Source: Thermosinus carboxydivorans Nor1
GTDB lineage: Bacteria > Bacillota > Negativicutes > Sporomusales > Thermosinaceae
Assembly: GCF_000169155.1 (NCBI RefSeq)
Contig: NZ_AAWL01000010.1
Coordinates: forward strand, 1-64,000
Length of the DNA stretch: 64,000 bases
Direction of reading: 5' to 3'
The position numbers and the translations under genes are program-made. A model generated the notes under the pieces. The model saw only the letters and a program-made list of their open reading frames with translations, was not told where the DNA came from and did no database searches. This document shows, piece by piece, positions 30,185-49,785 of the stretch (position 1 is the stretch's first letter; each line of letters starts with the position of its first letter).

Positions 30185-30239
30185 CTTGGCCTTGCAGATG
30201 CAGAGGCCAAGAATTATTTTATTGCCCTGGCCAATACTA
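30185..30239 (+). promoter_or_regulatory. hairpin and possible forespore-type promoter upstream of spoVAD
   Basis: The 357-base gap between the hydroxyacid dehydrogenase and spoVAD holds no gene. A hairpin, cttggcct (30185-30192) with aggccaag (30204-30211), is followed by gaatta (30211-30216), a 16-base spacer and aatacta (30233-30239). The last pair loosely resembles a sigma-G/sigma-F promoter, which would fit a spore gene. The match is weak and is inference only. Confidence 0.3.
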
Positions 30240-30354: not shown

Positions 30355-31359
30355 TTGAACAAAAAGCAAGGTAAGCAAAGTATTATTTTTGGTGCTCCAC
30401 CTATTATTACCAGTACCGCCAACATCGTTGGCCCGATGGAAGGGGAAGGGCTGCTGGCGGGATACTTTGACCAAGTGATGGCCGACAACTTAAATAATCA
30501 AGATAGCTGGGAAAAATGTGAATCCTATATGCTCGAGTGGGCTATCCGCAAAGCCGTGGCAAAAGAAAACAGCACCATCGCTACTGTTGACTATGTATTG
30601 GCCGGTGACCTGCTCAATCAGTTGATGGCCACCCATTTTGCTTTGCGAAGTTTGGGAAGGCCTTTTTTAGGCTTATACGGCGCCTGTTCGACGCTGGCGG
30701 AGGGCATGCTGCTTGGCGCCGTACTGCTCGATGGCGGCTTTGCCAATAAAGTGGCCGTTGCCGTATCAAGCCACCATGACACGGCTGAACGGCAATACCG
30801 TTTTCCTACTGAATTAGGGGTGCAGCGGCCGCCTGTTTCGCAGTGGACAGTTACGGGGGCGGCGGCGGTGGTACTAGCGTATGCAGGTAGCGGGCCGCGC
30901 ATTACGGCGGCAACGGTCGGGAAAATAATTGATATGGGGATTAAAGACCCAAACGCCATGGGTCCGGCGATGGCTCCCGCGGCTGTTGACACGCTCTGGC
31001 AGCATATTCAAGACACGGGACGGCAGCCTGCCTACTATGACCTGATTGTTACCGGCGATTTAGGGGTTGTTGGCAAAACTTTGGTTATTCAACTTATGCA
31101 GGAAAAGGGCTTGGATATATCGCAAAACTACGAAGACTGCGGGTGCATGATTTATCGCGAGGACCAGGACGCGCACGCCGGCGCCAGCGGCTGCGCCAGT
31201 TCCGGGGTAGTATTTACCGGTTATCTTTATCAAATGATGCTAGCGCGTAAACTGCAAAAAATTTTATTGATCGGTACAGGCAGCCTGCACAGCCCTACTT
31301 CGTACCAGCAAAAGGAATCCATTCCCTGCATTGCCCATGCCGTCGCGGTGGAAATATAA
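30355..31359 (+). CDS. spoVAD: stage V sporulation protein AD
   Basis: 334 residues of the thiolase-like SpoVAD family, which binds dipicolinic acid and helps load it into the forespore with the SpoVA channel. Clear family segments are GPMEGEGLLAGYFDQV, DSWEKCESYM, YVLAGDLLNQLMATHFALRS, LGLYGACSTLAEGM, SSHHDTAERQYRFPTE and VSQWTVTGAAAVVLAY. The start is TTG 30355 with cggagggg 6 bases upstream. spoVAC and spoVAE, its usual partners, are absent; instead two activase-like genes, DUF1657 and DUF421 follow. This is therefore a detached spoVAD, perhaps a paralogue. Confidence 0.92.
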   Translation: MNKKQGKQSIIFGAPPIITSTANIVGPMEGEGLLAGYFDQVMADNLNNQDSWEKCESYMLEWAIRKAVAKENSTIATVDYVLAGDLLNQLMATHFALRSLGRPFLGLYGACSTLAEGMLLGAVLLDGGFANKVAVAVSSHHDTAERQYRFPTELGVQRPPVSQWTVTGAAAVVLAYAGSGPRITAATVGKIIDMGIKDPNAMGPAMAPAAVDTLWQHIQDTGRQPAYYDLIVTGDLGVVGKTLVIQLMQEKGLDISQNYEDCGCMIYREDQDAHAGASGCASSGVVFTGYLYQMMLARKLQKILLIGTGSLHSPTSYQQKESIPCIAHAVAVEI

Positions 31360-31372
31360 GGAGGTTGATAAT

Positions 31373-32455
31373 TTGAAAGTTACTTACCCCCATATGGGGT
31401 ATCTGAGTATTCCAGTTTACAATATGTTAACCAACCTGGGCCTTGAAGTGGTTGAGGCGCCGCCGATTACGAAAAAAACGATCGAGCTGGGTTCGCTCTA
31501 TTCCCCGGAGGGTGTATGTTTGCCATACAAAATCAATATGGGTAATTTTTTGGAAAGTATCGACCGTGGCGCTGATACTTTTTTAACCGTATGCGGCGCC
31601 GGTAAATGCCGTTTAGGTTTTTACAACGCCGTACAGAAAATTGAGTTGGCCAAGCGCGGAGACGTCCGGTTTTATACTATCGACACCAATAATCTTTTCA
31701 GCAGTATTTACCGCTTCCTGCGGCAGGTCGCCCCGCACGTTAACCGCTGGGACATTTTAAAAAACATCATGCTGGCCGTAAAGACGCTTAAAGCTCTTGA
31801 TGCTATCTGCAGCGCCAAGAATTTTTACGGCGCACGCTCGGATTGTCCAGATAAGCTGATTGCCATCTGCAACAACGCGGCGCAAAGTTTTGCCGGTTGC
31901 CTGAGTTTCAGCGATATAAGCTATAAGCAAAAAGCCGTGATTGACTTGGTGCGGGCCGTTGGGGAGTCCGCCAAACAGCCGGTTAGAATTGGCCTTGTCG
32001 GCGAGTTTTATGTCTTGCTTGAACCCTATGTGAATCATGCCATCGAAGATGTACTGATAAAACAGGGGATAGAGGTTAAGCGGTTCGTCTATACCGGTGA
32101 TTGGGTGTTTTTAAATACCATGCTGCAGGCGCTGGGCTTGCATAATGAAGAGACGGCCTATCTAAACAAGGCGCGGCCTTATCTTAACTATCATGTCGGC
32201 GGTGAAGGCTTAAGAACGGTTGGCGGCGCTTTATGGTGCGCCAAGAACGGGTACGACGGCATAATCCATATCTACCCGTTTGGCTGTATGCCCGAGGTGG
32301 TTGCCGAGTACGCGCTGAAAAACATCGCGCGGGACTATGAGTTGCCGCTGCTCACCATTAGCCTTGATGAACACGCAAGTGACGTCGGCGTTATTACCCG
32401 CCTTGAGGCGTTTGTCGACTGCATTAAACGGAAAAAACAAAAACGGGAAAATTAA
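31373..32455 (+). CDS. 2-hydroxyacyl-CoA dehydratase activase-related protein (COG3581-like)
   Basis: 360 residues related to the large 'CoA protein activase' proteins and to HgdB/BcrC-type subunits. Cysteine motifs are GVCLPYKINMG, VCGAGKCRLGFY and YPFGCMPEVVAEY, fit to hold an iron-sulfur cluster. The end motif SLDEHASDVGVITRLEAF recurs in the protein at 32828, so the two are paralogous halves of one system. The ASKHA ATPase domain of true activases is missing. Translation starts at TTG 31373 after taaggaggttgat, 13 bases from the spoVAD stop, so it shares the spoVAD operon. Function is unknown. Confidence 0.75.
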   Translation: MKVTYPHMGYLSIPVYNMLTNLGLEVVEAPPITKKTIELGSLYSPEGVCLPYKINMGNFLESIDRGADTFLTVCGAGKCRLGFYNAVQKIELAKRGDVRFYTIDTNNLFSSIYRFLRQVAPHVNRWDILKNIMLAVKTLKALDAICSAKNFYGARSDCPDKLIAICNNAAQSFAGCLSFSDISYKQKAVIDLVRAVGESAKQPVRIGLVGEFYVLLEPYVNHAIEDVLIKQGIEVKRFVYTGDWVFLNTMLQALGLHNEETAYLNKARPYLNYHVGGEGLRTVGGALWCAKNGYDGIIHIYPFGCMPEVVAEYALKNIARDYELPLLTISLDEHASDVGVITRLEAFVDCIKRKKQKREN

Positions 32456-32547
32456 CCGTAACGCTCTATATTTTCCATTTATAAATACGTGCGGCCTGCA
32501 AAAAATATTAACGCATCGCTCAACACTTCATGATAGGGGGCTAGATT

Positions 32548-32754
32548 ATGACCGTAAAAAAAGATTTGGAGAAAGCCATTGCCGCCGCGGAGGCCGCTAA
32601 AGGCACTTACTCAACATTCGCTACCGCTACTGACGATCAAAGCGCTAAGACAATGTTTGAACAAATGTCCCAAGACATGGATCGTCATATCGCGCAACTC
32701 AACAGCCGCCTTAGTTCTACTGCAGAGAACAAACTAACAAACCAAGACCAATAA
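32548..32754 (+). CDS. DUF1657 family small protein
   Basis: 68 residues, helical and acidic-to-neutral, with VKKDLEKAIAAAEAAKGTYS, AKTMFEQMSQDMDRHIAQLN. DUF1657 proteins are found in spore-formers, commonly beside SpoVA and DUF421 genes, for example in the mobile spoVA operon of heat-resistant Bacillus spores. The pairing here with spoVAD and DUF421 supports a spore role. An atagggggc site precedes the ATG. A terminator follows within 10 bases, so this gene may be made in excess of the following one. Confidence 0.8.
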   Translation: MTVKKDLEKAIAAAEAAKGTYSTFATATDDQSAKTMFEQMSQDMDRHIAQLNSRLSSTAENKLTNQDQ

Positions 32755-32760
32755 CCGACA

Positions 32761-32789
32761 AGGGAGGTAGCAGAACTACCTCCCTTTTA
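32761..32789 (+). terminator. terminator after the DUF1657 gene
   Basis: Arms agggaggtag (32761-32770) and ctacctccct (32776-32785) with a 5-base loop are followed by ttt. It separates the spoVAD-activase-DUF1657 transcript from the second activase-like gene, unless read-through occurs. Confidence 0.75.
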
Positions 32790-32827
32790 ATGGCAGGCAA
32801 CTTTTTTCTTGGTAAAGGATGAATAAT

Positions 32828-33739
32828 ATGTTCGATAATGTCGGGATCCCTCAGGCGCTGCTATACCATGAATTTGGCGGCTTATGGACCACTTTTTTTC
32901 AGAATTTGGGAGTTCAAGTTATGGTATCCGGTGAAACCAGCAAACGCATGTTAGATTACGGTACGTCACTTGCGATTGATGAATCCTGCCTGCCGTTAAA
33001 GGTATATCTGGGGCATGTTGCTTCCTTATTAGATAAATGCAGCCATATCTTTGTCCCGCGGATTGTCCGGTACCATCGCCATTTTTATTTCTGCGCCAAA
33101 TTTGCCGGCCTGCCCGATATAGTCAGAAATACCTTTAACTTGCCCGCTGAACGGTTGATATCCCCCACAATCGAAACCAAGTCGCTGGCCGCGCAAGTTC
33201 AGGCCGTTTATGCTGCTTGCCGGGCGCTAGACTTATCTTTGCTAGCCGGGGAGCTGGCGTACAACCGGTCGCTAAAATCATGGCGAGCCCAGTTGCCTTC
33301 CCAAGAGCAATCACCCCGGCCTCGCATCGCCGTCATCGGGCACAATTACTTATTGAAGGACGCATTGTTTGGCAAAGACATAATCGGTACGTTGACAGCC
33401 CAGGGGGCGGTCATTGTTACTCCCGATAACATTGGCGGCAAAGTTCTCTACGATGAGGCTAAAGCCTTTGCGCCGGACATCTACTGGCAATTATCGGCCA
33501 AGATCGCCGGAGCGGCTCGCTATTTTTGTCGGCAAAGCGATATTGCAGGCATTGTTATGGTGTCGAGCTTTGGCTGTGGTCCGGATTCGCTGGTAAATGA
33601 ATACCTAGAACATCATGTTTTCCGGAAAAGCGATAAACCATATATCATTATTAATATTGACGAGCATACCGGCAGCGCCGGGATTATTACGCGACTAGAA
33701 GCGTTTTGGGACTTAGCGAATAGAAGAGCAAAACCTTAA
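32828..33739 (+). CDS. 2-hydroxyacyl-CoA dehydratase activase-related protein (COG3580/DUF2229-like)
   Basis: 303 residues, the second activase-like protein. Segments are IPQALLYHEFGGLWTTFFQNL at the start, SLAIDESCLPLKVYLGHV, RYHRHFYFCAKFAGLPD, VSSFGCGPDSLVNEY and the end motif NIDEHTGSAGIITRLEAF. The conserved cysteines suggest a bound iron-sulfur cluster. In other genomes DUF2229-type proteins are often fused to, or sit beside, an ATPase activase; none is present here. ATG 32828 is preferred (aaagga 9 bases upstream); ATG 32819 is also in frame. Function is unknown. Confidence 0.72.
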   Translation: MFDNVGIPQALLYHEFGGLWTTFFQNLGVQVMVSGETSKRMLDYGTSLAIDESCLPLKVYLGHVASLLDKCSHIFVPRIVRYHRHFYFCAKFAGLPDIVRNTFNLPAERLISPTIETKSLAAQVQAVYAACRALDLSLLAGELAYNRSLKSWRAQLPSQEQSPRPRIAVIGHNYLLKDALFGKDIIGTLTAQGAVIVTPDNIGGKVLYDEAKAFAPDIYWQLSAKIAGAARYFCRQSDIAGIVMVSSFGCGPDSLVNEYLEHHVFRKSDKPYIIINIDEHTGSAGIITRLEAFWDLANRRAKP

Positions 33740-33754
33740 GCGAGGGGGAGCATT

Positions 33755-33961
33755 ATGGCGAAAAACCATATCAGATACGCTGGCGCGGGTTTTCAGGCGA
33801 AAGTGTCGCCGAGCCGAATTAACCGGTTTGTCCGCGCTTTGCCGGAAAAGAAACGGCAGTCGCTGTTTTCGGTAGCGGAAGAGCTTAAGTCCGCGGGCTT
33901 GATTGAAACAACCGGCGAAATCACCCATAGTCATGCCGAGAATATCGATATAGATAAATAG
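33755..33961 (+). CDS. 68-residue protein of unknown function in the spore cluster
   Basis: A basic N-terminal half (AKNHIRYAGAGFQAKVSPSR) is followed by helices (INRFVRALPEKKRQSLFSVA, EELKSAGLIETTGE) and an acidic tail. I do not recognise the family. The gcgagggggagc ribosome site is strong and the gene starts 16 bases after the second activase-like gene, so it is very likely translated. It could be a small DNA- or membrane-associated spore protein; there is no direct evidence. Confidence 0.6.
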   Translation: MAKNHIRYAGAGFQAKVSPSRINRFVRALPEKKRQSLFSVAEELKSAGLIETTGEITHSHAENIDIDK

Positions 33962-34003
33962 CGTGCGAAGCCGGGAAGCGACCTATTGGCAGTCTGTTAT
34001 CGG

Positions 34004-34055
34004 CTACAAATAAAAGCGGTTGGAAGGTGAAGCTCCCAACCGCTTTTATTTGTAG
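34004..34055. terminator. bidirectional terminator between the spore cluster and DUF421
   Basis: A perfect 20-base-pair stem (34004-34023 with 34036-34055) carries aaataaaag on one arm and cttttattt on the other. It separates the plus-strand cluster from the convergent DUF421 gene. Confidence 0.9.
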
Positions 34056-34057
34056 CG

Positions 34058-34768
34058 CTAATTATTATTTTGCCTGTTGGCAGGAGTTTTGACGCTGACA
34101 AATAGTTGACCTTTAGAATCGATGGCGGCGTAGGTCACTTCGGATACGTCGGCGATGCCCCGGACGGCGAGCTGCTTTGCCAGCCAGTCCTTTGTCAGGT
34201 TGTGTTTGCGCAGGTTTTGTTCAATGATTTCGCCGTCCATCACGAGCTCTACCGGAAAAGTCGGGTCAGGCAGGTGAATTCCCAAATCGCTCTTGGTCAG
34301 GGGCTGATAGTCGGCCTTTTTAATCACACTCAGCTCACCCGATGTTTCGATGATGGCGTATTGCACCTCTGACGGGTCCAAGATGCCTTGCTGGCGTAAT
34401 TGGCCGGCCAGTTCATCCAAATCGTACCGCAGGCCGCGCATGTTTTCCTTAATAATGCGCCCGTTTTCGATCACGACGGTCGGGGAGCCTTCGATCAGTT
34501 TGCGGAGCGGCCGGCTTTTTATGGTAAGGTAGGATATAGAATAGGTAAGGGCTACAAATAACGCCAAGTCATAGAAGTGGCTCCACACTTTATCAGGTTC
34601 AGAAGCAGCCACGTTGGCCGCAATAGAACCGATAGTGATACCGCTGACATACTCGTAAAACGTTAACTGACCGATTTGGGTATTGCCCAAAAAACGCGCA
34701 AAGAGCAGTAAACTAAAGAAAACTAACGCAGTTTGCCAGGTGTCGCGCATGATTTCCTGCCAATCCAT
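34058..34768 (-). CDS. DUF421 membrane protein (YetF-like)
   Basis: 236 residues. Three hydrophobic segments at the N terminus (ALVFFSLLLFARFLG, YVSGITIGSIAANVA, DLALFVALTYSISYL) are followed by two soluble DUF421 repeats with GSPTVVIENGRIIKENM, ALIDGEI-like LVMDGEIIEQNL and VQYAIIETSGELSVIKK. The family is found in Bacillus spores and in the mobile spoVA operon, where it contributes to spore resistance or germination phenotypes. It ends against the terminator that also closes the SpoVAD cluster. Its ribosome site is aaggatggtga. Confidence 0.88.
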   Translation of the reverse strand: MDWQEIMRDTWQTALVFFSLLLFARFLGNTQIGQLTFYEYVSGITIGSIAANVAASEPDKVWSHFYDLALFVALTYSISYLTIKSRPLRKLIEGSPTVVIENGRIIKENMRGLRYDLDELAGQLRQQGILDPSEVQYAIIETSGELSVIKKADYQPLTKSDLGIHLPDPTFPVELVMDGEIIEQNLRKHNLTKDWLAKQLAVRGIADVSEVTYAAIDSKGQLFVSVKTPANRQNNN

Positions 34769-34842
34769 ATCTCACCATCCTTTTGTGTTCGAATGCCTGC
34801 AAGATATAGCTTGGACAGAAGTCGGTCCTTTTATGTTGGACG

Positions 34843-34890
34843 AGGTATAAGGATGAAGTATGAGGTATGAAGTATGAGGTGAGGCATGAA
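34843..34890 (+). repeat. GTATGAR heptamer repeat, second locus
   Basis: About five units of the 7-base GTATGAA/GTATGAG repeat lie between the divergent DUF421 and dCMP deaminase genes. Unlike the 9076 locus it has no inverted arm. Confidence 0.75.
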
Positions 34891-34953
34891 ATTATCTTCG
34901 CGGTCAAAATCTGGCGACTAGTTGCGAAATTGCTGGTACAGCTTGAACTGCTG

Positions 34954-34962
34954 TGATATAAT
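34954..34962 (+). promoter_or_regulatory. extended -10 promoter of the dCMP deaminase gene
   Basis: tgatataat gives TGn plus a perfect TATAAT box about 55 bases before the GTG start. The -35 region (about 34934) is poor, as is common for extended -10 promoters. Confidence 0.5.
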
Positions 34963-35017
34963 CGTATTAACTCCGCGTAAAAAGAACAAAATTGCTCCGT
35001 GGAAGGATGGTGATGGC

Positions 35018-35461
35018 GTGAGCCGACCGACCTGGGATGAATATTTTATGGATATTACACGGGTGGTGGCGCTGCGCTCAACGTGTCTCAGGCGACAGGT
35101 GGGAGCGGTTATCGTCAAGGATAAGCGGCTCCTGACCAGCGGCTATAACGGCGCGCCGCGCGGTCTGGCCCACTGTGAGGATGTGGGCTGTCTGCGCGAC
35201 ACCTATCATGTGCCGTCCGGCGAGCGGCACGAGCTGTGCCGCGGCATGCATGCCGAGCAAAATGCCATCGTCCAGGCGGCGCTCTACGGCGTGGCCATCG
35301 AAGGGGCGACGCTGTACTGCACCCATCAGCCCTGTTCAGCCTGTACCAAGATGATCATTAACGCCGGTATCCGCCGTATCGTCTACGAGCATCCCTATCC
35401 CGACCCGCTGGCGCGGGAGCTGGTGCAAGAGGCCGGCATCGAGTGCGTTTGTTTAAAATAA
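35018..35461 (+). CDS. comEB: deoxycytidylate deaminase (ComEB-like)
   Basis: 147 residues. It deaminates dCMP to dUMP for thymidylate synthesis. Zinc and catalytic residues are in [14 protein letters not shown] (His-Ala-Glu) and [16 protein letters not shown] (Pro-Cys-x2-Cys). The additional CEDVGCLRD segment binds the second zinc typical of this family. The GTG at 35018 lies 6 bases after aaggatggtgatgg; the longer frame from 34922 runs through the promoter and is rejected. It stands alone. Confidence 0.93.
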
Positions 35462-49277: not shown

Positions 49278-49785
49278 TGTTCGCCTGGCATGGTTGCTGA
49301 GCCGATGGGCTGAAATAAGCCTTGTTGCCTAATCAGCGGGAAAACAACCTGAGGGCAAGGGTGGCGCTGGTAACGGCGAGGTCTGAAGGAAGCTGCAGGG
49401 GGAACTCGGAACATAGCGAAAGCGAACCGATGTTGGCCGCTCAGGTGGGTAACCTTGCATGAAGTGGGAAAGCCCGAAAGCTGATTAACCTGAGAGGTTA
49501 GAACGGATGCGTTCAAGTTAAGGCAAGCAACCTTAACCGGGGAAGCCCATCACTATCCTGTACTTTTAGCAGGTCGTTTCAAACAAGGGGAACCACAAGG
49601 ATGAAATAAAGTAGTTGTGGGTGGCAGAACAATTCCTGGCCGATGAAACCTGGTAACAGGACTGGAGGGGAAAACCAGGGAGACACTGCACTAAGTTGCA
49701 GTGGAGTACCCAGAGCCAAAAGCCTGTGTACTTGCGAAGGGACGAAGATAAATCAAAGAGTGCTACCTATTTAGCCCCTAACCCA
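49277..49785 (+). mobile_element. group IIC intron, 5' fragment without reverse transcriptase
   Basis: The 5' end gtgttcgcctggcatgg matches the start of class C introns (the Oceanobacillus intron begins gtgtgcccggcatggg). Domain I features follow in the same order: gcaagggtggcgctgg, gtctgaaggaagctgcag, ggaacatagcgaaagcgaac, and the end of the domain accggggaagccc near 49540. Class C introns insert just after terminators, exactly as here. No reverse transcriptase frame and no recognisable domain V are present; the 49555-49785 part is unassigned and may be intron sequence. An IS3 remnant cuts it off. Confidence 0.75.

Follow-up and report, generated by a model that had tools for sequence, protein, structure and literature searches.

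Within the 64,000-nucleotide stretch of Thermosinus carboxydivorans Nor1 considered here (contig NZ_AAWL01000010.1, positions 1 to 64,000; the whole stretch is referred to as the window), the gene spoVAD (30355–31359, plus strand) heads a cluster containing two paralogous genes, ActA (31373–32455, plus strand; 360 residues) and ActB (32819–33739, plus strand; 306 residues), collectively ActBA, whose products very probably have a reductase fold and are related to the modules of PlsA-like proteins. Taken as a whole, the locus is best explained as encoding a split, oxygen-sensitive PlsA-type reductase that serves the forespore and most likely modifies lipids of the inner membrane, a reading to which we give about an even chance. 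The components of this reading are not equally firm: a role of ActBA in sporulation is probable and the sporulation link is well supported, and a lipid as the substrate, which is proposed by analogy with the nearest relatives, is tentative.

Identity of the ActA and ActB pair

ActA and ActB are 26% identical to each other and their predicted structures (pLDDT 84.6 and 87.7, respectively) have the overall fold of the cluster-bearing component of the benzoyl-CoA reductase/2-hydroxyacyl-CoA dehydratase (BCR/HAD) radical enzyme superfamily. The top fold matches were HadBC (2-hydroxyisocaproyl-CoA dehydratase), the double-cubane cluster protein DCCP, and the benzoyl-CoA reductases BzdNO and MbdON at Z 12–17, compared to about 10 for unrelated entries, with ActA reaching Z 16.7 to 3O3N (root-mean-square deviation 4.3, 307 aligned residues) and 16.1 to 7YZM and ActB reaching 14.8 to 7YZM (4.0, 259 aligned residues) and 14.6 to 3O3N, and DCCP was the best Foldseek match for both. 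The likeness to HadBC, BzdNO, and MbdON spans the predicted fold of the whole chain and includes the heterodimer-like pairing of paralogs. Three cysteines are 100% invariant in each protein (Cys49, Cys79, and Cys305 across 84 aligned rows for ActA; Cys51, Cys86, and Cys247 across 78 for ActB) and, because they are spaced much like Cys95, Cys128, and Cys380 of BzdO (PMC11971306), this pattern predicts one site per subunit, presumably of the [4Fe-4S] type. A double cubane built from the three plus three cysteines was considered and dropped; despite the structural match to DCCP, the window subunits conserve only three cysteines each, and a double cubane requires six in one subunit, as ligate that of BzdN (PMC11971306).

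A preliminary description of this DNA had called the two proteins cysteine-rich and activase-like. The first term overstates the case, given that each has no more than three invariant cysteines, and the second can be discarded, as neither protein matches the ASKHA ATPase family (PF01869, TIGR00241) and the predicted folds are instead those of the dehydratase/reductase component. Proteins of this type are often named activases, an annotation that the reductase fold corrects. The pair also differs from characterized 2-hydroxyacyl-CoA dehydratases and benzoyl-CoA reductases, which use a CoA substrate, in having no adjoining activase gene and in its very weak sequence match to them (E 0.37 to HadC).

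A closer relationship is found with PlsA-like single chains of 1,300–1,430 residues in relatives, in which two ASKHA domains are followed by an ActB-like and an ActA-like module. ActB (PF09989, E 5e-39) matches the Red1 and ActA the Red2 module of these proteins, with the ActB profile reaching E 4e-61, and all six invariant cysteines are kept in three of the five chains examined (L265, L267, and L268). Because the chains share the Act1-Act2-Red1-Red2 layout of plasmalogen synthase (PMC12838417), ActB would correspond to Red1 and ActA to Red2, both without activation domains. With the plasmalogen synthase PlsA/PlsR of anaerobes and the glycerol ester reductase Ger (PMC12838417, PMC9702350, PMC13274423) the window pair shares the Red1/Red2 modules, a three-cysteine site in each, and the DUF2229 domain, and in most relatives an ASKHA ATPase is likewise a partner of ActBA; the pair differs in consisting of two separate genes without activation domains, rather than one or two long chains, and in its linkage to sporulation genes. 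The order in the window is Red2 then Red1, compared to Red1-Red2 in nearly all relatives. A 2026 lipid study reported further PlsA homologs in Bacillota genomes, devoid of the activation domain and of unclear role (PMC13274423).

Statements on the window genome as a whole (2,889,774 bases, 49 contigs) are based on family searches. The genome encodes two more ActBA-type pairs, on contigs C1 and C3, and one ASKHA gene (matching PF01869 and TIGR00241) located beside the C3 pair (L051), an adjacency that occurs in many relatives; no PlsA-sized protein with DUF2229 was found in it. On an Actinomycetota contig (L222, 8854–11150), the genes next after ActB-ActA-ASKHA encode an NfnAB-like pair of flavin/iron-sulfur oxidoreductases, which could possibly supply electrons.

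Association with sporulation genes

T. carboxydivorans is counted among the spore formers (PMC6315149) and its genome contains spoIVA. The cluster consists of spoVAD, ActA, a 68-residue DUF1657 protein (32548–32754; PF07870, E 5.2e-16), ActB, and a 68-residue open reading frame (33755–33961), all on the plus strand, followed by a convergent gene for a 236-residue DUF421/YetF-like membrane protein (34058–34768, minus strand; PF04239, E 7e-42). This content and these positions agree with the preliminary description, as does the lack of spoVAC and spoVAEb in the cluster by family search, but the DUF1657 gene sits between the two DUF2229-type proteins and not, as had been stated, after both. Because the order spoVAD-ActA-DUF1657-ActB is retained in a sister species, the cluster is more than a chance arrangement, and it is not unique to the window genome.

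Across a phylum-wide sample, an ActA homolog was present in 275 of 398 genomes, 265 of which also have SpoVAD (odds ratio 18.8, uncorrected for phylogeny), and, among the matches listed, ActA lies within 8 kb of spoVAD in 38 of 71 sampled genomes with both. The order in Clostridia, taken from loci picked for closeness, is dacF-spoIIAA-spoIIAB-sigF-spoVAC-spoVAD-spoVAEb-(spoVAEa-spoVAF)-ActB-ActA-ASKHA, often followed by lysA. Among the best 80 loci of a scan ranked by similarity to the query, 46 of the 54 non-Negativicutes Bacillota loci with sufficient flank lie no more than 8 kb from spoVA or sigF genes, and loci linked in this way include those of Desulfofundulus, Thermincola, Pelotomaculum, Syntrophomonas, Orenia, Natroniella, and Halonatronum. 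The gene directly upstream of ActB is spoVAF, spoVAEa, or a SpoVAC/Eb gene in 51 of 89 loci (a set that includes 20 preselected loci), with a median gap of 60 bases. Several clostridial dacF-spoIIA-sigF blocks (L202, L205, L209, and L242) are without spoVAC, spoVAD, and spoVAEb and keep spoVAEa and/or spoVAF together with ActB-ActA. The tie of iron-sulfur-type proteins to SpoVAD and sporulation that the preliminary description proposed thus extends far beyond the window genome, although the proteins are not the activases it took them for. Papers on the sporulation transcriptomes of C. perfringens, C. difficile, and C. beijerinckii make no mention of ActA/ActB-type proteins, and none of the papers searched mentions DUF2229, or COG3580/COG3581 together with sporulation. 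One contig filed as Desulfovibrio sp. (L208) has the order spoVAC-spoVAD-spoVAEb-spoVAF-ActB-ActA and is perhaps a misbinned or transferred stretch.

In a quick tree with SH-aLRT support only, the window pair falls in a Negativicutes-specific clade, and the spoVA-linked pair of Clostridia clusters with the C1 pair of the window genome. Sporomusa and its relatives have the window-type pair arranged as a cassette, DUF1657-ActB-ActA, which is present in Sporomusa ovata (L183), among others, and DUF1657 recurs just upstream of ActB in relatives; solitary DUF421 genes near the Sporomusa cassettes are 68–73% identical to the window DUF421, and a second-class spoVA operon (spoVA2) is found near the cassette in two genomes. 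The cluster itself is not simply the mobile spoVA2mob set to which it had been likened. It shares SpoVAD, DUF1657, DUF421, and a sigma-G-like promoter with spoVA2mob and spoVA2 (PMC5133452, PMC10126465, PMC13059800), whereas its SpoVAD groups with the canonical class, spoVAC, spoVAEb, and yhcN are missing, DUF421 is not fused to DUF1657, and ActA and ActB are additional; identity with the mobile operon was excluded on the basis of the SpoVAD class and the missing spoVAC and spoVAEb.

It is improbable that the neighborhood is without function, with spoVAD having landed by a redox pair of general function and the gene order in Clostridia reflecting an old operon fusion or hitchhiking. The broad ActBA family is not restricted to sporulation, as it is found in lineages not known to sporulate and in contigs of Nitrospirota, Chloroflexota, Actinomycetota, and Atribacterota without spoVA genes nearby, and among 61 sampled SpoVAD-negative genomes 10 have an ActA homolog. 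A common occurrence of the pair in asporogenous bacteria without spoVAD, which the preliminary description had named as evidence against its proposal, is therefore seen in part. The neighbors in the non-Bacillota loci revealed no common pathway, and detached spoVAD genes in two other genomes (G040 and G055) have a different neighbor, a phosphate acyltransferase. Against an accidental arrangement stand dozens of loci in which ActB follows closely behind spoVAF on one strand and the repeated company of DUF1657, a family tied to spore operons; further, because two distinct ActBA clades, in different lineages, repeatedly accompany spoVA-type genes, a functional tie is favored over accident.

Upstream of spoVAD there is a candidate sigma-G promoter (GAATT-N17-AATACTA; 30211–30239, plus strand) inside a block conserved with the sister species, the rest of the upstream region having diverged. 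The element resembles the promoters ahead of the spoVA2 operons of relatives, and a pattern chosen post hoc after inspecting those promoters (GAAT-N18/19-MATAMTA) matches once in the 64-kb window, with at least one match in 16 of 100 shuffles. The strict B. subtilis sigma-G pattern had no good match. Collectively, the sequence offers support, not proof, for a sigma-G promoter.

A proposed role at the spore inner membrane

We propose that ActB and ActA act as Red1 and Red2 of a split, ATP-dependent BCR/HAD reductase that is closest to the PlsA/PlsR and Ger group. An ASKHA ATPase, in the window genome probably that of contig C3 acting in trans, would pass electrons of low potential to the [4Fe-4S]-type site formed by the three cysteines of each subunit. 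The ActBA set would be co-expressed with SpoVA proteins in the forespore and, with DUF421/YetF and DUF1657, would act at the spore inner membrane, where the most likely reaction is the reduction of ester-bound phospholipid acyl chains to vinyl ether or ether chains; the resulting ether lipids may help keep the permeability of this membrane low. The canonical spoVAD of this genus has left the spoVA operon and joined the ActBA set.

A lipid role at the inner membrane is the leading candidate because the closest relatives of known activity form vinyl ethers or ethers by reducing acyl chains that are ester-bound in phospholipids (PMC9702350, PMC13274423) and because ActBA has membrane-linked partners, namely the proteins of the SpoVA channel, SpoVAF, and DUF421. 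DUF421 proteins are thought to act on inner-membrane properties of Bacillus spores, and how proteins such as DUF421/2Duf cause the unusual impermeability of this membrane has been stated to be unclear (PMC10126465). The placement of PlsA homologs lacking activation domains behind a spoVA operon in many anaerobic spore formers joins the question of membrane impermeability to that of the role of these homologs, and both are testable. The linkage also suggests that a lipid or redox step in spore formation by anaerobes has been overlooked. As a speculative extension, which we regard as rather unlikely in its entirety, the SpoVA channel genes of anaerobic spore formers would be accompanied by those of a dedicated split PlsA-type reductase, expressed in the forespore. 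This enzyme would turn ester lipids in the inner membrane of the spore into ether or vinyl ether lipids and so aid dormancy or resistance, and its sensitivity to oxygen would account for its absence from aerobic Bacilli.

Somewhat unlikely, too, is a sporulation-linked BCR/HAD-type reductase that does not involve lipids. Its substrate might, for example, be an acyl-CoA, a small compound of nitrogen or sulfur, or a redox partner within the forespore. Such an enzyme would explain the sporulation linkage equally; the fold and the three-cysteine sites are at least as compatible with 2-hydroxyacyl-CoA dehydratases, CoA esters are the substrates of those HAD/BCR enzymes whose function is known, and DCCP acts as a reductase of small molecules (PMC11971306). 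In profile comparisons, however, ActB and ActA match the PlsA-like modules far better than they match solved HAD, BCR, and DCCP proteins (E about 0.004–0.4), and the remaining genes of the set are membrane linked.

The preliminary description had placed the iron-sulfur proteins in direct work with SpoVAD on dipicolinate or another metabolite during loading, storage, or germination, a possibility that now appears very unlikely. It would fit the gene linkage, which is to SpoVAD in this genus and elsewhere to the SpoVA operon, as well as the position of SpoVAD on the cytoplasmic side of the channel (PMC13059800), but several Clostridia have the set behind spoVAEa/spoVAF where spoVAC, spoVAD, and spoVAEb are absent, SpoVAD stands alone in G040 and G055, and nothing was found to support a metabolite-loading or dipicolinate tie, the nearest relatives being reductases of ester lipids. 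Dipicolinate synthase subunit A (DpaA, TIGR02853) was not over the cut-off in the window genome, despite the presence of SpoVAD and SpoIVA, and dipicolinate may be made there by another route. A role for ActBA in dipicolinate synthesis was considered and rejected, as that synthesis is an oxidation and runs opposite to ActBA-type chemistry.

Several observations weigh against a PlsA-type lipid reductase of the forespore, in addition to the occurrence of the family away from spoVA genes in other phyla. Identity to the PlsA-like proteins is only about 20–26%, and the comparison was made with chains assigned to this type by their architecture. The 64-kb window contains no ASKHA gene (PF01869), the window pair and the pair that follows the spoVA operon in Clostridia are not orthologs, and a terminator-like hairpin separates DUF1657 from ActB. 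Further, the phospholipid classes of B. subtilis spores are unchanged by the loss of YetF (PMC10126465).

The detached spoVAD and other features of the locus

The window SpoVAD is a full-length member of its family (PF07451, E 1.9e-143; TIGR02845, 457.6 bits against a cut-off of 411.8; PRK08304 over its cut-off) that aligns full-length to the solved SpoVAD 3LMA (E 4e-96), and it is the sole SpoVAD in the genome. On contig C27, a dacF-spoIIA-sigF type block is followed downstream by spoVAC and spoVAEb, which are adjacent, with a gap of ~37 bases where a gene of ~1 kb would be expected, such that spoVAD, described beforehand as detached, is so genome-wide; in the sister species spoVAD is likewise missing between the two. 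Three more genomes (G004, G040, and G055) have a detached SpoVAD, and in the tree all detached copies belong to the canonical class and not to the second class, which accompanies DUF1657 and DUF421.

In the spoVA operon of the window genome (L111, 9978–11016), spoVAEb is followed by two proteins without a Pfam match (131 and 216 residues), relatives of which occur at the same position in other Negativicutes. The detached canonical spoVAD of G040 and G055 (L113, 7779–9798; L115, 6470–8482) adjoins a phosphate acetyl/butyryl transferase, and a gene of the same transferase cluster adjoins ActB-ActA-ASKHA in G038 (L041, 10711–11724). In another pair of loci (L037, 5931–7507; L117, 9510–11065), a type III polyketide synthase and an ICMT-family methyltransferase lie directly upstream of the detached spoVAD and DUF1657 in G004 and of DUF1657-ActB-ActA in G023.

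Within the cluster, ActA starts at a TTG codon at 31373, the listed open reading frame beginning at 31331 inside spoVAD. Two hairpins were detected by folding that a simple terminator scan had missed: one with a T run after DUF1657 (32760–32790, plus strand; −18.9 kcal/mol, z −3.76), a putative terminator or attenuator, and a long inverted repeat (34003–34056; 24-nt arms, 96% complementary; −37 kcal/mol, z −7.87) that stands between the 68-residue open reading frame and DUF421 as a predicted bidirectional terminator for the convergent genes. The 68-residue frame has no family match and no homolog in any locus compared, and, because even the sister species is without one, it may not be a gene. 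DUF421 adjoins a dCMP-deaminase-family gene in both Thermosinus-type genomes (window 34058–35461; L032, 1082–2469), and in the sister species five or more genes lie between DUF421 and ActB. Elsewhere in the window, the sole Rfam match is a group II intron (RF02001, group-II-D1D4-3; 79 bits) at 49364–49531 on the plus strand.

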